A DNA stretch of 64,000 nucleotides from Gammaproteobacteria bacterium (GTDB taxonomy: Bacteria > Pseudomonadota > Gammaproteobacteria > Steroidobacterales > Woeseiaceae): contig JAOTUB010000005.1 in the NCBI GenBank assembly GCA_029864095.1, forward strand, positions 1 through 64,000, in the 5' to 3' direction. Below the pieces are notes generated by a model. It was given only the letters and a program-made list of their open reading frames with translations. It did no database searches and had not been told where the DNA came from. Positions 2,719 through 18,254 of the stretch are shown piece by piece; position 1 is the first letter of the stretch; the number at the start of each line of letters is the position of its first letter. The position numbers were made by a program, and so were the translations under genes.

Positions 2719-3677
2719 TTGTCCGCAGTTTAGTGGATGACAATCTGCCAGACGGCTGGCGCATTGAAACTACTTCTGTGCTGTCCCGTGATGGGGACAA
2801 TATAGGGATTTTGCATCCCGCAACTCTGCATGAAATTGTGGGCGATGAAATCTCTGCCATCTTAGGTCCTGCGGGCCGAGTAGCCTTAACGGAAGGAACC
2901 AACTACATCGAGGCATTGTCCGCATGTGGCGCATTGCTGCTCGGGCACAGGGAAGAGATTTCCAAAGTGTCAACGCTACTTCAGTCCGCGCGGATGAGCC
3001 GAACAACATCGTACTTGTGTTCTATTTCGGGGAATTGCCGCCAAGTGCTGACAGCGGTTCGACACATACAGACAGCTCGTGTAGCCGTAGTGGGCTGTGG
3101 CGGTATAGGTTCGCTTGCTGCCATGTTATTGGCGGGTAGTGGAATAAGGTCTTTAACGCTTGTCGATAATGACACAATCGAGGAGTCCAACCTAAACCGA
3201 CAAATCGTGTGGTCAAAAGATGATATTGGTCAACTCAAGAGCGATGTGCTGGCAAGAGAGCTGCAGAGGCGATTTGACGATGTATCGTTGGCTCTTTACC
3301 CACGACGTGCAGATAGAAGCTTTCTTCAACTGCTGTTGTCGGAGAACGATGCTGTCCTGCTAACGGCAGATAGCCCTCTCGGCATAGTTCCAGCCGCGCG
3401 CCGCATCGCTGCTCGCTTGTGTTCGCTGTTGGTTACCGGCGGTTACAGTTTCAAACATGCTATTGTTACTGTAACAAATAGTCAGTCTAACTCTGCCGGT
3501 AAAGAAGGGAATTGGCAGTCTCTCGAGTTTTGCATACCCCCAAGTTTCGGGCCAGCAAACGCTCTTTTGGCCGGCGCTACAACGAGTGCTCTACTGCACC
3601 AATTATGCGAGTTAGCTGACTACGGCGCTTCATCCATCTTTGGATGGGACGTAGATACGCTCAAAAACTCTGCCTAA
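2715..3677 (+). CDS. ThiF/E1-like adenylyltransferase, MccB-like
   Basis: 320 aa; AVVGCGGIGSLAAMLLAGSGI nucleotide-binding motif, LVDNDTIEESNLNRQIVWSKDDIGQLKSDVLARELQRRF and a TAD motif in the position of the MccB SAD motif; ~115-aa N-terminal extension like the MccB peptide-clamp. TTG start overlaps the upstream stop (TTGA). Confidence 0.85.
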   Translation: MIVRSLVDDNLPDGWRIETTSVLSRDGDNIGILHPATLHEIVGDEISAILGPAGRVALTEGTNYIEALSACGALLLGHREEISKVSTLLQSARMSRTTSYLCSISGNCRQVLTAVRHIQTARVAVVGCGGIGSLAAMLLAGSGIRSLTLVDNDTIEESNLNRQIVWSKDDIGQLKSDVLARELQRRFDDVSLALYPRRADRSFLQLLLSENDAVLLTADSPLGIVPAARRIAARLCSLLVTGGYSFKHAIVTVTNSQSNSAGKEGNWQSLEFCIPPSFGPANALLAGATTSALLHQLCELADYGASSIFGWDVDTLKNSA

Positions 3678-6267: not shown

Positions 6268-7165
<898 letters not shown>

Positions 7166-9798: not shown

Positions 9799-11604
9799 CT
9801 ACCCGCAGATCAGTGGATACTGAGGAGCGGTGGTAGTGGCAATCGTCTTGGCGTCGAGGTACTGGGTCAACACAGACTCGGCCGTGCAAAATGCACCCTC
9901 CACCCAAGCCTGATCGTTGGAGTACGCCGACCCCACGATGTAGACCGCCCCATCGCCTCCCGCCAGCTTGGCGGGAGTGCGGATCTCCTGCATCACGTCC
10001 ACGATGTCGTAGTGAGCAGCCCAGGCGTGGTATCCGGCGCCGAACGGACTCAACGCCCAGTCCATGAACTTGGTCTCTAGTGGCTGGGGTATGTCCCAGG
10101 CCTTGTCTGGATCGCCCCAGTGCACCTTGGCCAGCTCGAGCATGAGCATTTGTATCATGACCCGAGAGGCTTCTCCGGCAGCTTGGAGCGGCTGATAGTT
10201 CTGACTCAGCGGCACCTGACGACGCTGTGTCACCTCGAGCTCGAGCTCCTGCCAAAAGCGGGTGAACCGCATATCGTCATACGAGGCGAGAAGGCCGTAG
10301 ATTGTCTGGCTGCCGCCGTTCGGCGCGTTGTTGCCGAAGTAGTAGATCTGCCGTAGCGGCAGGTCGGTGATGGTCGGGCCGAACACGTTGGCACCGGGCG
10401 AACGGTTGTGTTGAGTGTTGGACTTGTTCACCAGATCCGGCGGGTATTTGCTCTGCTCCCACCAGGGGGCATCGAAAAACATAGCGATCTTGTAGGAAGG
10501 CTGCTCGATTACCGATTCAACGTAGTTCTGGACCCTGGTTGCGTTGAGGAAATCGGTCTTTCCACCCATGTCCTGGTAGCGGGTAGCCCGAGCCACCAAT
10601 TCGATCGAATGCCTTGGCATCGCAAGAAACGCGTAGTCCGCGGTTTGGGGCGGGCCTGCCGGCGTGTTCGGGTTGGCTGCACTGGCGATTTGATAGTAGA
10701 TCGTCGAGCCTTCCATCCAGATGGAGTGGAGCCGAGTCTGCTGGGTCAGGGTGAAGTCGATGCCTCTCGATTGAGCTGCCGACTGGGCTTGTTTGAATAA
10801 CTCGACGAACAACTGCGAGTAGCCGGTTTTGAGAGTCTTGAACGTACCGCCCGGGGCAAACTCACCGTTGTAGACAGCAGCGTTCGCGGCGTTCCAATTG
10901 ATGACGTTGGAGCTGTAACCACCGGCATCAGCCGCATACTGATAGCCTTCGTTGCCAGCCTGGTCGTAGAAAAAATTCCAGTAGCCGATGTTGCCCACGT
11001 TGTCGCCAGCGTTGTAAACCACCGAGCTCGTGCCCGACGGAAGCCTGCCACCGGAGTAGAAACGGCACTGCGCCGTCCTACACGAGACGTCGCTCCCTTC
11101 GGTCATCAGACCCGATATGTGGCTGACCTCATCGTCGGCGGGCTTCTCATTGACCCCGGGCGTGTTGTACGGCGCGGTTACCGGGCAGGTGGGCGGGGGT
11201 TTGCTCGACGGAAGCTGATTCTGGTAGAAGGGAACGCCTCTCAGATAGAAGAACGGATTATCGGTGGTCAGGAAGTTGATCACCTCGCCGTCCAGACCCA
11301 GCAGGTGGACGGTCGTGGTGACGAGCTGATGGCCCTCGGTCCCATCCCACTCCAGATAGCGCATGCCACCGATCTCCACATAGGAATTGTCGGCACGGCC
11401 CTGGTAGTGGTGGCTACAAATCCGGCCGGCAGGAAGTCGGGTGCCGCCGTCGCCGGCGGCAAACGAGAAGTGGCCCCATTCGACGAGCTCGATCGAGTCA
11501 CCCTCGTTGACCAGGGGATTACCGTCGGTCCTCGTGCCCGTGATGAGCCGCCACGCCGTGTAAAGACCGCCGGGACCGGCGCCGAAAACCTTGTAGTTGG
11601 CCAT
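9799..11604 (-). CDS. FAD-dependent amine/L-amino-acid oxidase-like protein
   Basis: 601 aa; N-terminal FAD motif VFGAGPGGLYTAWRLITG; C-terminal GGDGAVYIVGSAYSNDQAWVEGAFCTAESVLTQYL typical of amine oxidases. Confidence 0.7.
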   Translation of the reverse strand: MANYKVFGAGPGGLYTAWRLITGTRTDGNPLVNEGDSIELVEWGHFSFAAGDGGTRLPAGRICSHHYQGRADNSYVEIGGMRYLEWDGTEGHQLVTTTVHLLGLDGEVINFLTTDNPFFYLRGVPFYQNQLPSSKPPPTCPVTAPYNTPGVNEKPADDEVSHISGLMTEGSDVSCRTAQCRFYSGGRLPSGTSSVVYNAGDNVGNIGYWNFFYDQAGNEGYQYAADAGGYSSNVINWNAANAAVYNGEFAPGGTFKTLKTGYSQLFVELFKQAQSAAQSRGIDFTLTQQTRLHSIWMEGSTIYYQIASAANPNTPAGPPQTADYAFLAMPRHSIELVARATRYQDMGGKTDFLNATRVQNYVESVIEQPSYKIAMFFDAPWWEQSKYPPDLVNKSNTQHNRSPGANVFGPTITDLPLRQIYYFGNNAPNGGSQTIYGLLASYDDMRFTRFWQELELEVTQRRQVPLSQNYQPLQAAGEASRVMIQMLMLELAKVHWGDPDKAWDIPQPLETKFMDWALSPFGAGYHAWAAHYDIVDVMQEIRTPAKLAGGDGAVYIVGSAYSNDQAWVEGAFCTAESVLTQYLDAKTIATTTAPQYPLICG

Positions 11605-12852
11605 CTACCTCTCCTTGGCGGTATCGGGGCCGCCCCAATTGATCGCGAAGTTGGAGCGATCGATTCTGTAATCTCCGAATTCGAAGTACTGGAGGTACTC
11701 GTCCGCCAGCATCTGGCAGATCATCTCGCCGAGGATAGGGATGAACTTGGCTGCCCAGCCGGCGCTGTAGGTGACAATGCTCTGAGCGTTCGGAACAGAG
11801 CCGGGGGCATAGTCGAGCAGCAGCTCTTTGGTCTCCGCTCCACTGGAAAGCGCAATCAGGCAGGTCGAAGTGAACTCGGACGTCGAGTCGAGGCCCATCA
11901 TATGGTCGCGTACCCAGGCTTCGTTGTAACCCAGGCTCTTTTCACTCGGATCGGGATTCCTCTGGCTCGGGTCCGTGAGGATCTTGTCCGGGATGTCGGG
12001 AGCTACCCTGATGTAACCGGGGTGAGCCCAATCGACTTCAGGGAAACCGTAGTACAGAGAAGTGTTCTGGGGCTCCTGGAAGACGAACCAGGTTGGCAGC
12101 ACCAACTGCGGGTCGGTCTTGCGATAGTAGGCGGACGACATTTCCCAGATCTCGATGTCGACCGAAAGACCCAGATGGGCAAGAACGACATTGACGTACG
12201 GACCGGGCGTTATGGCCAGCTTTTGCGTCGTGTAGGTCGCTTTGTCGGTCGTTACCTCGATGACGCCGCCCTCGACCGAAGAAATGCCGATGACCGTTTC
12301 CTGATCGTGGAACTCCACCGGTCCCGTCGCCTCGGCGCCTTGGAACAGGGCACGCTCGGTCGCCTTGAGGTTGATGATTCCACCGTCCGGCTGAAAAAAC
12401 CCACTGTAGTCCGACGGCAGGCCGCGAAACGGGTAAGCGCTTTCGATGGCGGCCGCGTTGGCAAGCGCCGTGTAGGCGATGCCTAGCGAGTCCATCGTAT
12501 TCATCGCGGCCTGAATGCCGCCTTCTTGCGAAGACAACGCCGGGTCACCGAACCAAAGGCTGCCACCGTGTCCCTTGAGCAGGTCGCTGCTATAGCGCTG
12601 AATGTCGTTCCAGAAGGGAATCGCCGACAGAGCCAACTCCGACATGTAGTGTTGGGAATACTGCACCCGGAATTGGCGCGACGCGCCGGCCGAACTGCCC
12701 TGGTCATTTAGAAAGCCGAACTGCTCGATCACAAGCGTGCGCCACTGCCGGCCCGCGGCATGATACGCGGTGGAAAGACCCACCGCTCCGCCGCCGATGA
12801 CGACCAGATCGTAGACAGTACCTGTGGTCATGAGACCACATCCGCAGAGCAC
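11605..12852 (-). CDS. FAD-dependent oxidoreductase, sarcosine/N-methyltryptophan oxidase-like
   Basis: 415 aa; YDLVVIGGGAVGLSTAYHAAGRQWRTLVIEQFGFLNDQGSSAGASRQFRVQYS. The stop codon (TAG) directly abuts the ATG of the next gene. Confidence 0.8.
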   Translation of the reverse strand: MLCGCGLMTTGTVYDLVVIGGGAVGLSTAYHAAGRQWRTLVIEQFGFLNDQGSSAGASRQFRVQYSQHYMSELALSAIPFWNDIQRYSSDLLKGHGGSLWFGDPALSSQEGGIQAAMNTMDSLGIAYTALANAAAIESAYPFRGLPSDYSGFFQPDGGIINLKATERALFQGAEATGPVEFHDQETVIGISSVEGGVIEVTTDKATYTTQKLAITPGPYVNVVLAHLGLSVDIEIWEMSSAYYRKTDPQLVLPTWFVFQEPQNTSLYYGFPEVDWAHPGYIRVAPDIPDKILTDPSQRNPDPSEKSLGYNEAWVRDHMMGLDSTSEFTSTCLIALSSGAETKELLLDYAPGSVPNAQSIVTYSAGWAAKFIPILGEMICQMLADEYLQYFEFGDYRIDRSNFAINWGGPDTAKER

Positions 12853-13348: not shown

Positions 13349-14251
13349 TCATTGCCCGCGTCCAAAGTAAATATCGGCTGGCGTCAGGTTTTTCAAGCTC
13401 TCATGGTATCGCTGATGGTTGTAGTGATCGACGAACGCCTCGATCTGCGTTTCAAGATCACCGGGCAGAAAGTAGTTCTCCAGCAATATCCGGTTCTTCA
13501 ATGTCTGATGCCAGCGCTCGATCTTGCCTTGTGTTTGTGGATGATACGGAGCACCGCGAACGCGACTCATCTCGTTGCCAGTGATCCAGTCGGCGAGCTC
13601 GTTTGAGATGTAGCTCGAGCCATTGTCAGAGAGCAAGCGTGGCTTGTGGGTGACATCGGCCTGGTCACAACCCGATGCCTGAAGAGCAAGCTCCAGGGTC
13701 TCGGTGACATCGCGGCTGGTCATGCCGGTACACAGCTTCCAGGCAATGACGTAGCGGGAGAAGTCATCCAGAATGGTGGACAGATACATCCAGCCCCAAC
13801 CGATGATCTTCAAGTACGTGAAGTCGGTCTGCCACATCTGATTGATGGCCGTGGTCTTGTCCTGGAACTCGCTAGCGGCCTTCATGACAATGAAGGCCGG
13901 GCTGGTGATCAGATCATGGGCTTTGAGAAGCCGGTATACCGAGCTTTCCGAGACAAAATAGCCCTCGCTATCGGTGAAAGTAACGGCCAGCTCACGCGGG
14001 CTCAGTTCGGGACGGTCCAGTGCCAACGTGATTAATCGGGCCCGGACATTGTTGGGAATACGGTTCCACACCCGGGCCGGCAAAGGCGCTTTGTCTTGCA
14101 GCGCTGTTTCCCCGTCGGAACGATAGTGTGCGTACCAGCGGTAGAACGTGGTGCGAGCAATGCCCAGCCTATCGAGCGCCTGCTTGGCCGGAAGGTGCGA
14201 CCGTTCTACCAATCGGATGATCTCAAGCTTCTCAGAGGCCGGGTATCTCAT
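13349..14251 (-). CDS. IS3-family transposase orfB (DDE integrase)
   Basis: 300 aa; INQMWQTDFTYLKIIGWGWMYLSTILDDFSRYVIAWKL...LLSDNGSSYIS...HPQTQGKIERWHQTLKNRI. Confidence 0.95.
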   Translation of the reverse strand: MRYPASEKLEIIRLVERSHLPAKQALDRLGIARTTFYRWYAHYRSDGETALQDKAPLPARVWNRIPNNVRARLITLALDRPELSPRELAVTFTDSEGYFVSESSVYRLLKAHDLITSPAFIVMKAASEFQDKTTAINQMWQTDFTYLKIIGWGWMYLSTILDDFSRYVIAWKLCTGMTSRDVTETLELALQASGCDQADVTHKPRLLSDNGSSYISNELADWITGNEMSRVRGAPYHPQTQGKIERWHQTLKNRILLENYFLPGDLETQIEAFVDHYNHQRYHESLKNLTPADIYFGRGQ

Positions 14252-14622
14252 TCGAGTTCCTCCCCATCCCCGAGCATGCTTTTTTTGAGCAAGCGCAGTT
14301 CCAGCGTTTGCTCGGCAACTACCTCTTTGAGATCTCGGGCTTCACGCCTCAGGTCAGTGACTTCGCTAGTGTTGGCCTGACGGACAATGTCTCCGGCCAG
14401 GCGCTTCTTGCCGGCCTCCATGAAGTCCTTAGACCACTTGTAGTACAGATTCTGGGCAATACCTTCGCGTCGACACAGCTCGGCAATGCTGTCTTCGCCA
14501 CGAAGCCCATCCAATACAATGCGGATCTTCTCCTCCGCACCGTATTGCTTGCGCGTCTTGCGCTTGATGTCTCGAATGGTTTGTTCTGACGACGATGGCC
14601 GTCCTGTCGGTCTCTGTTTCAT
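14248..14622 (-). CDS. IS3-family transposase orfA
   Basis: 124 aa; RKQYGAEEKIRIVLDGLRGEDSIAELCRREGIAQNLYYKWSKDFMEAGKKRLAGD; overlaps orfB at ATGA. Confidence 0.95.
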   Translation of the reverse strand: MKQRPTGRPSSSEQTIRDIKRKTRKQYGAEEKIRIVLDGLRGEDSIAELCRREGIAQNLYYKWSKDFMEAGKKRLAGDIVRQANTSEVTDLRREARDLKEVVAEQTLELRLLKKSMLGDGEELE

Positions 14623-14708
14623 CTCAACTCCTCAGGTTAGGATGAACAAAAACACTCCTTTAAACCACAACTAAATCTGTTCCATAGGCGGTGACGGCGC
14701 ACACGCCA

Positions 14709-15164
14709 CTATTGCGGCCCTTGGCTTGATGCTGAGGAATCGAGTGTTTTCAACTTCGAGATCGCGATCATATGCTTATTGTCACGCGCCGAATATCGAG
14801 AGTTGTCGCGAACTACAGCGAATTCACCGAAGTAGACTTCCGACCACGTCCCATCGGGATTCACACCAACAACCAGCAGTAGATCGGCTTCGTCTCTGAA
14901 GCCAATTTGGTTGGCATGATAATTGGTCTTGATCTGAACAGTCTTACCATCAACCGTCGAGGCATCGTAGCCACTCGATCCGCCGGGTGCTTTAGAAAGG
15001 CCGTAATGATTGATCGCGACGAATTCGCCGAAGTCACCAAGCAGGTTACCAAGACCGGTCCACCGGTACTCAGGAGCAAGAGCACGCAAAGCTCTCTGCG
15101 CCGTAAAGATGCTAGCAAGCATATGCTGAACGGCAGCTACTTTGTCAGGAATTTCAGCCATCAA
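14709..15164 (-). CDS. DUF6998-like / PD-(D/E)XK nuclease-like protein
   Basis: 151 aa; LGDFGEFVAINHYGLSKAPGGSSGYDASTVDGKTVQIKTN, with a D...QIK pattern typical of restriction-endonuclease-like folds. Confidence 0.55.
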   Translation of the reverse strand: MMAEIPDKVAAVQHMLASIFTAQRALRALAPEYRWTGLGNLLGDFGEFVAINHYGLSKAPGGSSGYDASTVDGKTVQIKTNYHANQIGFRDEADLLLVVGVNPDGTWSEVYFGEFAVVRDNSRYSARDNKHMIAISKLKTLDSSASSQGPQ

Positions 15165-15175
15165 CTCATTGGGTC

Positions 15176-15931
15176 CTACGTTGATTTGTTGAGATTAATC
15201 AGAAGTTCACTGCTCCGTTTTTCGCCTGGACCTGTTACGTGATAACTTCCATCGTTCGTCTGATATACGTACCTTTTACTGGTCAATGCCTGCAAATTCC
15301 GTGTGACTGTGGAAGGAGAATACTGGGTTGATCTGCCCAATTCAGTCCGGCTAAGTCCCGTTGATCCAGCATCAATAAGTAACAACAGTATCTCAAGTTC
15401 GCATGGCACGGCATGAGTTACGACGGTTTCTCCGGCAATGGACTCAATTAGCGGCGTGTAGGTGCGCATCAACGAAGCCATCGCACTTTCAACCTCTGCC
15501 TCATCTGACAGATGAAACTGTCGAATAAATTCAGCGACAATCCATGATGCAGCGTGCACGGCTAGCGATGCGTCAATTCTACGTGGGTCCAGTTCTTTGA
15601 CGTGAACAGCTCCCGTCTTGCTCCTAATGTCGTAGACCATCGACATCGCAACGCGTGGAACAAGAAGACGGAGTGACTCCGGCAGCGATGTGTCGTTCTC
15701 TAGCGCTACTCTGGTTTTCGACGCGTTTTTGATTTCGGGCAGCACTTTGCCTGTTCGTAGGAATTCTAGTGCCCTGAGTGTATTCTCAACGAATTTTCCG
15801 GACGCGGAAAGACACCCATCGAGATCGTTTTTTCTGTAGCGTGTGACAATCTCATCGTAACTCTTGAGCAGGTCCGTAGCTATTTCGCTATCGATGGCGG
15901 ACGAAAGGTCGTTTAGCAATTGGCTGGACAT
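15176..15931 (-). CDS. Uncharacterised protein with C-terminal MarR-like winged helix
   Basis: 251 aa; C-terminal LEILLLLIDAGSTGLSRTELGRSTQYSPSTVTRNLQALTSKRYVYQTNDGSYHVTGPGEK reads as a wHTH with beta-wing. Confidence 0.6.
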   Translation of the reverse strand: MSSQLLNDLSSAIDSEIATDLLKSYDEIVTRYRKNDLDGCLSASGKFVENTLRALEFLRTGKVLPEIKNASKTRVALENDTSLPESLRLLVPRVAMSMVYDIRSKTGAVHVKELDPRRIDASLAVHAASWIVAEFIRQFHLSDEAEVESAMASLMRTYTPLIESIAGETVVTHAVPCELEILLLLIDAGSTGLSRTELGRSTQYSPSTVTRNLQALTSKRYVYQTNDGSYHVTGPGEKRSSELLINLNKST

Positions 15932-15936
15932 GCGTG

Positions 15937-16643
15937 TTAAGTCTTTTTCGTCCTATAAACCCACACTGATTTTCCGTCCACTTCCTCTTTTTTCCGCGTC
16001 AAGGTCCTGTCCGTGCGAACGGCCTTGTTGACGTACTGCGGGATGGTCGAGAGCTTGACCATTACTGCCTCCTCGTGAAATCTGTCTCGAACCTCGGCCG
16101 TGGTACGCCCGTTGTCAAAAAACCCTGAGCGATCCACTTATCAATCGTTTCGCCAAGTCCCTTGTTCTTCTTGTTGCTTGTTTTCTTGCTTGTCTTCGGC
16201 TTGGCTTTTTTTGCTGATTTCTTTTCGGCCGATTTTTTGTGGCGATTTCCTGGTTTATTGGCTTGACCCGCACCAGTTATGGCTTTTTTTACGGAATCGA
16301 GATGGCTGGGACGGACGGAATATCTGCTGTTCTTGACCGATACGAGATGACTATCTTTCAGCTCCACCAATATCCGCCTTACAGTTCCTCCGGCTATTCC
16401 CAGCATTTCTGATATGTCTGCGGGCTTCGCGCCGGTCGGTACGTCATCGTCAGTTACGAACGGCCAACCTTTTAGGCTAACCAGGTAGACGAGAATTTTC
16501 GCTTTGCTTCCCAACCCAGCAAAATCTGGTGTAAATGCGATTTCCAATTCGTCGATATCGTACCGAACGTAATCAGCTACAACTGATTCGATCGCTTCTT
16601 CCGTCATTGCGGCCTTTTGCGCAACTAATTCTTTCAATCCCAT
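15937..16643 (-). CDS. Winged-helix/Lys-rich-linker protein in two frames joined by a T_TTT_TTG slippery site (frame 0: 16062-16643, 193 aa; -1 extension to 15937)
   Basis: Frame 0 runs ...GLGETIDKWIAQGFLTTG; the -1 frame continues as ...GFFDNGRTTAEVRDRFHEEAVMVKLSTIPQYVNKAVRTDRTLTRKKEEVDGKSVWVYRTKKT, which reads as a coherent wHTH domain. The shift point is the 6-T run (minus strand) at 16117-16122. Confidence 0.6.
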
Positions 16644-16707
16644 TGACTGTGTCTCTTATCGATGCAAACGCGAGGCCGCAAGTACTCGACTGCGCGGGTT
16701 CACAGCC

Positions 16708-17259
16708 TTATTGCGACTTGGAAGATTTAGGCAAGTCGTGTTCAACGAAATTCTCCCCCATAGTCGTCAGTTGTAGATTCTCAAGATCGCTTGAATCGAG
16801 CCATCCGGCGGAACCAGTTTGATGAATCATGTTCTTGAGATCCGCTGGCAGTCGCCACTTCAGCCACTTGAACGACGTGTAGACATGATTGATCGATACT
16901 GAACCCGCATCCACGTGGTTCGCCAAGTAGTATGCGCACACCGCGATTTTCGCCTTCATGCTGCTTGGCTGTTTCTGCCCGACAAATTCGGCCAAGGAAA
17001 GGCTATCCTTCGGGTTGAGATTCAAATCCTTGACGAGTGTTAGGGCTTCTTTTTTCTTGGGTTTCGAGGTACCTTTTGGTTTTGGCTTAGCCCTAGCAGC
17101 CTTTTTGAGGGTGGCTGCCGGCCTCGAGACTGCGGTATCACCGACATACTTATCCCATGCCCAACGAACCAAACGTTCGGCCGCTGCCTTATCATTCAGT
17201 CTATTGAGGGTATCTGAAATACTCTTTAGTGCTTCAATTTCATCTACTTTTTCTGTCAT
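16708..17259 (-). CDS. Uncharacterised protein with Lys/Pro-rich linker
   Basis: 183 aa; helical N-terminus, KKAARAKPKPKGTSKPKKKEAL linker, C-terminal domain LSLAEFVGQKQPSSMKAKIAVCAYYLANH...; first gene of the minus-strand operon. Confidence 0.55.
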   Translation of the reverse strand: MTEKVDEIEALKSISDTLNRLNDKAAAERLVRWAWDKYVGDTAVSRPAATLKKAARAKPKPKGTSKPKKKEALTLVKDLNLNPKDSLSLAEFVGQKQPSSMKAKIAVCAYYLANHVDAGSVSINHVYTSFKWLKWRLPADLKNMIHQTGSAGWLDSSDLENLQLTTMGENFVEHDLPKSSKSQ

Positions 17260-17944
17260 AACCTGATTCTCTCGATCACAAAACTGGAAGATCTATTTCC
17301 CCGTCAAGGAAGTCAGACCCGAAAGTATCAGGAAGTTGCCTATTTATCCACATTTTCTTGGAATTTTCGTTGCACGTCGGATTTTTCGTCAAACCTTCTA
17401 TCGTGTTAATTTCAGGGCTAATTGGACGAACACATGAACTGTTCACTAAATGAAAGAGTAATTTGGATCATTTATTTTGATATTTCGACTATAAATTATT
17501 GATTATCATGGCTTTTACTTTATTCGAAAGTTGTCGGACTTTTTCTATTTCAGCGCTTTGGTCATGTAACTTTCTATTCGCTTGGTCACGAAAGAGATGG
17601 ACAGGTTTCTTGATTTCGAGATTATGTACAAAAGAGCTTGGCCCCCCCCGCAATCCGGTGTCGCAAGTCCTTGATCCCTGGCATTTTTCCATTTCCGTAG
17701 CTGATTGGCAGATGCATAGCGCCACGAAATACAGGACCGGTGCTAGTCGATCCTTACTCAGGCTAATCGCGCCCGCCAATCGTCACGAGTTAGGGATGAG
17801 TTGGGAGTGCCGAGACGCTTACGCGCAGAAACGTAGCCGTTGGTTCATCCGCCCTGTTCTAGGGATTCACGGCAACGAATTGTGTGTGCGACTCCCGAGT
17901 GATCTCCGGATGCCCGACGGACCACATGGCCCGTGAGGCGGAGA

Positions 17945-17994
17945 TGGCGCGCCCGGAGAGATTCGAACTCCCGACCGCCTGGTTCGTAGCCAAG
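17945..17994 (-). tRNA. 3' fragment of a tRNA-Arg(ACG)-type gene (anticodon arm through CCA); no matching 5' acceptor arm
   Basis: Minus strand reads cttggctacgaaccaggcggtcgggagttcgaatctctccgggcgcgcca, i.e. anticodon loop, T-arm (ttcgaat), acceptor 3' strand and CCA. The complementary 5' gcgcccg is not found upstream. Confidence 0.65.
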
Positions 17995-18185
17995 AGGACC
18001 GCAGATTAGACGAACTACCAATCTGCTCTCAACATCACATCCGCGCGAGTTCAAAACATTAGGAGCCCAGGTCCTTTGCCGTCTGAGCCTATCTGGCTGA
18101 TCAAATATTAGCCAGTCGTCAGCTTAGCAACCAATATTGGTTCATGCGTCTTCTAGTTCTCGCCGGTAACGCGCTGACTTCGTGC

Positions 18186-18222
18186 AGTTCAAAACTTTAT
18201 TAGGTAGTTCAAAACTTTATTA
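18186..18222 (+). repeat. Short tandem direct repeat (agttcaaaactttatta x2, 20-bp period)
   Basis: agttcaaaactttatta at 18186-18202 and 18206-18222; a partial third copy (agttcaaaacatt) at 18048-18060. Confidence 0.9.
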
Positions 18223-18254
18223 CGAAGGACCAGCAGGTCGCGGACATGCTCAGG

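Follow-up and report, generated by a model that had tools for sequence, protein, structure and literature searches.

Four closely spaced genes on the minus strand at positions 14709-17259 raise the question of whether they act together as a defence system, and of which genes such a system would comprise. They lie in a 64,000-nucleotide stretch of DNA from a gammaproteobacterial genome, called the window below. The original prediction, made from the sequence alone, had proposed an anti-phage or restriction-like module. All four genes were found at the coordinates it gave, in the order A, B, a continuation of B, C and D down the minus strand. They are tightly packed, with 64 bp between A and B, 5 bp between the continuation of B and C, and 14 bp between C and D. 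On balance, we consider it probable, with modest confidence, that A, B and C constitute a sparse, widespread and horizontally moving HEPN-based defence cassette, lying beside an independent nuclease encoded by D.

Genomic setting of the locus

The operon is bounded downstream by an IS3-type element on the minus strand (13349-14622; OrfA 14248-14622, OrfB 13349-14251), recognized by matches to rve, HTH_32 and HTH_Tnp_1. Beyond the right end of the operon lie the 3' part of a tRNA-Arg(ACG) gene (17945-17975, minus strand) and then glmS. The tRNA fragment resembles an integration (att) remnant. It is an exact 31-mer that also occurs in the intact tRNA-Arg gene on contig C63 and in a second fragment on contig C174. 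The domain matches and the 31-mer copy agree with the predicted setting between an IS element and a tRNA fragment near glmS. The AT-rich leader that had been proposed (17260-17500, minus strand) was confirmed by measurement, with a GC fraction of 0.41, compared with 0.48-0.50 in the operon and 0.57-0.61 in the flanks. Promoter-like matches in the leader (17409-17381 and 17392-17363) were at chance level (4 sites in the region against 3.6 expected), and Rfam gave no credible match to an RNA element there.

C and D are present in the window genome, whereas a search of 59 relatives found neither. Window positions 5.0-18.2 kb had nothing in common with the region that follows glmS in relatives, so no empty site could be defined. 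Because of the low GC, the absence from the 59 relatives and the unshared flanks, the A-D locus is most simply read as acquired. No methyltransferase occurred among the genes at 13349-18250, so the cognate methyltransferase of a type I-III restriction-modification (R-M) system is missing. We also considered glmS as a preferred site. The window copy and those in L014 and L022 have glmS close by, but the majority are found elsewhere; no Tn7-type genes were seen, and we took the proximity as chance.

Other features of this region were noted. Contig C174 carries further tRNA-Arg(ACG) 3' ends at 3160-3190 and 18200-18230, about 15 kb apart, which may mark both ends of an integrated element of the kind that left the window fragment. 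A second IS3-type OrfB-like transposase, recognized by eye, lies at window 6268-6909, about 6.4 kb from the first, and the first 18 kb of the window look like a composite acquired region. Two adjoining minus-strand genes at window 9799-12852 encode an FAD-dependent oxidoreductase (DAO) and a 601-aa flavoprotein-like protein; the latter had no Pfam match.

Gene C combines a HEPN-like bundle with a winged helix

Gene C (251 aa; 15176-15931, minus strand) is the conserved core of the module and has a homolog in a Xanthobacteraceae genome (locus L012; E 6e-71). The AlphaFold2 model of the whole protein had a mean pLDDT of 87. The C-terminal MarR-like winged helix that had been predicted was recovered by both Pfam and Foldseek at residues 177-250 (15182-15403, minus strand), but the HEPN-like N-terminus, the most informative signal in the protein, had been missed. 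The winged helix gave moderate matches to HVO_A0261_N (4e-7) and MarR_2 (3e-5) and a match above cut-off to HTH_IclR, and Foldseek aligned it with the pNOB8 centromere-binding protein (4rs8; TM 0.78 on the target).

Residues 1-155 (15467-15931, minus strand) form the HEPN-like helical bundle, as indicated by the domain model, Foldseek and hhalign. The Foldseek search with the whole protein was uninformative for the N-terminus, so this domain was folded alone. The resulting AlphaFold2 model (pTM 0.84) has helices at 15-33, 37-60, 85-104 and 116-139, arranged as a four-helix bundle of HEPN topology. Its most probable Foldseek matches were largely HEPN proteins, among them the archaeal ST0689 HEPN protein (prob 0.94), Csm6 (0.90) and sacsin HEPN (0.87); AbiV and a HEPN toxin ranked further down. 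The E-values of the HEPN matches were weak (0.5-2, and 0.5-1.2 for those with prob 0.87-0.94), as is usual for small helical bundles. Alignment to Abi_C proteins with hhalign placed the motif described below in register, with a probability of 36% and E 4e-4 in one comparison, while the Pfam HEPN family PF05168 reached E 0.048, in three members of the C family only. Given these scores, we assign C to the HEPN group on the agreement between the fold, the motif and the Foldseek list.

The motif, R103-SKTGAV-H110 (15602-15625, minus strand), lies in the loop that joins long helices three and four. Its histidine is invariant in the C family (25 of 25), and the form R-[NS]-x5-H occurs in 14 of the 25 members. 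The other 11 carry ASNRGxRH, from which the usual arginine is absent, and nearly all of them have S3-type partners. From its sequences, this branch may be inactive, may work differently or may use another arginine. In an alignment of 21 sequences, the most strictly conserved positions were F47, E49, Y100, H110, D120, W130, E134 and R137, all within the N-terminal bundle.

These features bear on whether the operon merely regulates transcription or organizes the nucleoid, with C and its partners binding DNA and the bundle serving only for dimerization, devoid of enzyme activity. The best structural matches of whole C are indeed MarR-type proteins and the plasmid centromere-binding protein, a winged helix is present or possible in every component, and the standard HEPN arginine is missing in the 11 relatives. 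However, the strictest conservation lies outside the winged helix, the bundle resembles HEPN domains, and the distribution is sparse, acquired and partly beside R-M genes. We therefore regard a regulatory or nucleoid-type operon as improbable. A plain MarR-type regulator was rejected for C on the position of its conservation. The identity CasR/Csa3 suggested by PADLOC and NCBIfam was also rejected. C shares with these CARF-wHTH regulators (TIGR01884) a two-domain architecture with a C-terminal winged helix, but the match covers the winged helix only, at E ~1e-3 and far under the cut-off, and the N-terminus of C is helical rather than CARF.

The defence RNases of the HEPN superfamily include AbiJ, AbiV, Abi_C, Csm6 and their kin (Anantharaman et al. 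2013, PMC3710099). C resembles them in its helical bundle, in the R-x6-H spacing in the loop that follows long helix three, in the Asn or Ser that follows the arginine in 14 of 25 members, and in lying partly among R-M genes. Proteins of this superfamily are commonly fused to other domains, and C has a winged-helix fusion. It differs in that no family model matches it (Pfam HEPN only at about 0.05, in the three members), in its near-obligate linker-winged-helix-like partner genes and C-terminal winged helix, and in the large branch that lacks the usual arginine. Taken together, C is the likely effector of the conserved module. C would be an RNase with R103 and H110 in its active site.

Partner genes A and B and the frame break in B

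Gene A (183 aa; 16708-17259, minus strand) corresponds to the Lys/Pro-linker protein of the original prediction and defines partner family A. It consists of a helical N-terminus, a Lys/Pro-rich linker and a winged-helix-like C-terminal domain, and had no Pfam match. Its reality is supported by a homolog at L012:6805-7365 (36% identity over its length, E 4e-36). The C-terminal half of A also has kin in L013, L014, L018, L019 and L039, all of which are C loci.

Gene B, which defines partner family B, is split by a single-base frame change, as had been foreseen for a frameshift-linked winged-helix protein with a Lys-rich linker. The zero frame (193 aa; 16062-16643, minus strand) contains the winged-helix domain and the linker. 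It shares 39-50% identity with genes upstream of C in L012, L016 and L011 (E 2e-40 with the L012 homolog), although its winged-helix matches, at residues 71-110, were weak. The continuation in the -1 frame, called B2 (66 aa; 15937-16137, minus strand), encodes a second winged-helix-like domain and matches the in-frame C-terminal part of B in L012 (E 4e-9). The frame changes at the in-frame heptamer T_TTT_TTG, in a run of six T residues (16116-16122, minus strand; sequence GGT TTT TTG ACA).

L012 contains the same A-B-C set, with the counterpart of A placed after C, and B is a single 229-aa reading frame there. Because both halves of B form one frame in L012, the break in the window is genuine, and because A, B, B2 and C each match homologs in L012, these frames are real genes. 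The break fits programmed -1 slippage, a mutation that arose recently, an error in the assembly or translation of B2 on its own. B2 groups with B-type partners encoded by genes of their own in L021, L027, L028, L018 and L023, and a domain of this type was not seen in L011, L013, L014 or L016. Since it is a separate gene in L021, L027 and L028 and was not seen in those four loci, B2 looks optional in the module. A decayed B2 pseudogene in L011 was considered, but tblastn found no convincing remains, and B2 was treated as absent there.

The break counts against intact function, and the window copy is possibly damaged. The window copy might even be the broken relic of an integrated element, in which B was inactivated by the frame change; the adjoining IS element and tRNA-Arg fragment would suit such a history. 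However, A, C and D are complete and retain their conserved motifs, and in B2 an open, conserved frame runs on for 57 residues past the break. Other intact modules also do without B2, so losing it would not necessarily disable the system. We accordingly give decay of this copy little weight.

Many partners begin with a short N-terminal element and end in a winged-helix-like domain, with a variable linker in between, although the winged helix is weakly supported in every partner and best supported in B. BLAST of the small genes preceding C separated at least five partner families, not visibly related to one another.

Recurrence and spread of the A-B-C module

A profile built from three C sequences detected 19 C loci on genome contigs among 84,980 species. 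Whole-genome samples gave further copies in the class (3 of 369) and the phylum (2 of 399), with the window genome counted, and in the phylum of L018 (about 6 of 297 genomes sampled). Acidobacterial matches with E 1e-6 to 1e-3, which covered only the winged helix, were left out of the count. The approximately 25 relatives of C come from Pseudomonadota, Acidobacteriota, Chloroflexota, Nitrospirota and archaea, including a nanohaloarchaeon. The C tree mixes these phyla, as expected of horizontal transfer.

In nearly every C locus, one to three small partner genes precede C. The last partner lies -17 to +17 bp from C at the 19 junctions measured and usually overlaps it. The partner family follows the C tree, with 4 changes compared with 12.9 in shuffles, a value reached by 0 of 200. 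From these sequences, the tracking fits a specific pairing between partner and effector, although it would also arise if the cassette were inherited as a unit. We tentatively suggest that the linker-winged-helix partners, of which each locus has one to three, are interchangeable adaptors that would serve as recognition subunits and programme one conserved HEPN-winged-helix effector. Each of the five or more partner families would be tuned to its own clade of effectors, in bacteria and archaea alike; we hold this as a possibility rather than an expectation. It raises the question of whether several small winged-helix adaptors set what a single HEPN effector answers to. The module is compact, with two genes at its simplest, and its partner families can be exchanged, which makes cloning and chimeras easy.

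The module is poorly represented in known collections. No system protein of PADLOC-DB 2.0 matched A, B or C over its length; A had no match and B and C had short winged-helix matches only. No Pfam, NCBIfam, PADLOC or PHROG model was found for C and its partners, with the members run against varying subsets of these libraries. The accessible parts of PMC3710099 and PMC12839542 do not describe the module; an earlier account elsewhere is possible, as subscription papers and newer defence libraries were outside the scope of the search. If C is an RNase effector, the module would be a defence (or toxin) cassette that spans several bacterial phyla and archaea and is not covered by the libraries searched.

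The main rival to the defence reading is a toxin-antitoxin-like stability module, with which it overlaps mechanistically. C would then be a HEPN toxin and the partners its antitoxin and autoregulators, and phage protection would be secondary, if it occurred at all. A small DNA-binding-like gene overlapping a HEPN-like gene is a compact, horizontally moving pair of the right kind, and copies occur on a haloarchaeal plasmid and a prophage-type contig. The resemblance to HEPN/MNT systems, in which a HEPN-like gene lies beside a small partner in a compact, mobile unit, stops at the partners. In the C module these are linker-winged-helix-like, from at least five families and often several per locus. 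Up to three partners of different families before one C exceed the need of a simple pair, and neither A nor B contains a nucleotidyltransferase domain, so the MNT-type antitoxin is missing. Addiction modules are abundant on plasmids and phages, whereas 72,556 plasmids yielded almost no copies of this module and 50,697 phage records yielded none. We consider a toxin-antitoxin role unlikely on this evidence, though worth keeping in view.

An origin of C from phages or plasmids was rejected. Gene C itself matched nothing in INPHARED (phage) or PLSDB (plasmid). Among its relatives, the L020 protein matched one haloarchaeal plasmid, from Natronomonas pharaonis and partial, and no phage, and scans of viral contigs with C profiles found one contig with C.

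Neighbours of the C copies and a possible mode of action

Several copies of C lie beside defence genes, including type I and type III R-M loci. C follows hsdM-hsdS-type genes in L021 (N6_Mtase and Methylase_S) and a Schlafen-group helicase in L028. It precedes a Mod-Res pair in L015 (N6_N4_Mtase and ResIII), mrr in L027 (Mrr), and a TIR gene with a second HEPN-like gene in L016, the latter recognized by eye. On the prophage-type contig, a partner and C lie between a DUF3800-like gene, also recognized by eye, and UmuC-like and endolysin genes. Many copies stand alone among housekeeping genes, and in L038 C directly follows rpoC. Defence genes were near about 6 of 20 C loci, the window included, a count made without a matched control, and the association of C with defence is suggestive. 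The R-M neighbours and the prophage-type copy, together with the acquired nature of the locus, uphold the defence-type part of the original prediction.

The HEPN-based defence cassette could operate as follows. Its own winged helix and the short upstream partners from the same operon would tether C to nucleic acid. A and B would recognize an invader nucleic acid or nucleoprotein state, and either keep C inactive or recruit it. On infection, the putative HEPN site (R103 and H110) would cut RNA, so that the phage or the cell is stopped. Such a module would be small and probably abortive.

Two further arrangements were noted. In a Pseudophaeobacter metagenome-assembled genome (L029:5081-7019), a partner and C lie inside the S10 operon, between rplW and rplB, which is unusual for accessory genes. 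At L016:6838-8152, next to the TIR gene, another small gene of the linker type comes before one for a 279-aa protein, which carries an RNGCGH-type motif towards its end. This pair may represent the two-part plan of the module with the order of domains reversed.

Gene D is a separate nuclease-like protein

Gene D (150-151 aa; 14709-15161 from an ATG or 15164 from a TTG, minus strand) had been described as a 151-aa DUF6998/PD-(D/E)XK-like protein, and this description proved accurate. Pfam placed it in DUF6998 with E 6e-31 (107.7 bits against a gathering cut-off of 27). A phmmer search gave one relevant solved relative, Eco15I (8q5m; E 2.6e-4), and the PADLOC mREase_II models matched at 1e-6. 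E47, D67 and Q77-I-K79 of D (numbered from the TTG at 15164) align with the catalytic residues of Eco15I, in which changes of the catalytic Glu, Asp and QIK residues abolished activity (PMC11347163). Because these residues align, D very probably has a nuclease fold, with its active site intact. This gives a checkable function to a family marked as unknown.

BisI and Eco15I are modification-dependent endonucleases that act on 5mC/5hmC at GCNGC (PMC11347163, PMC4926085, PMC8281217). D shares with Eco15I the catalytic Glu of the first helix, the Asp of the 'AD' motif and QIK, but only about 100 residues align, D belongs to DUF6998, and the extra C-terminal domain of Eco15I is absent. D is plausibly a modification-dependent nuclease, separate from the module and similar to Eco15I in a type IIM/IV-like manner, that probably cuts DNA with modified cytosine.

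Whether D belongs to the module depends on its company elsewhere. The module could be a single four-gene restriction-like system, with D as the effector and A-C recognizing the target or regulating the response. In the window, D lies 14 bp behind C in the same orientation and has its nuclease residues aligned. However, no D homolog was found in any other C locus examined, and the relatives of D lie beside XRE and reverse-transcriptase-like genes, or R-M or methyltransferase genes (near 2 of 4 plasmid relatives). A scan of viral contigs with D found none. A, B and C recur together elsewhere but D does not accompany them; DNA-binding-like proteins and a nuclease-like fold are both present, as predicted, but not as one unit. 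We consider a four-gene system very improbable, and D was rejected as a member of the conserved module. D would have been gathered separately into the same spot as the A-B-C defence cassette and would serve as a second, independent line of defence, with any cooperation between the two being conjectural.

Other members of DUF6998 occur in varied surroundings. A close homolog at L104:1082-3399 lies beside an XRE-type HTH gene and a reverse-transcriptase-like gene. Remote members in the same class (L106, L107 and L108) lie beside a DinG-like helicase or a tsaB-like gene, and perhaps represent a housekeeping branch of the family.
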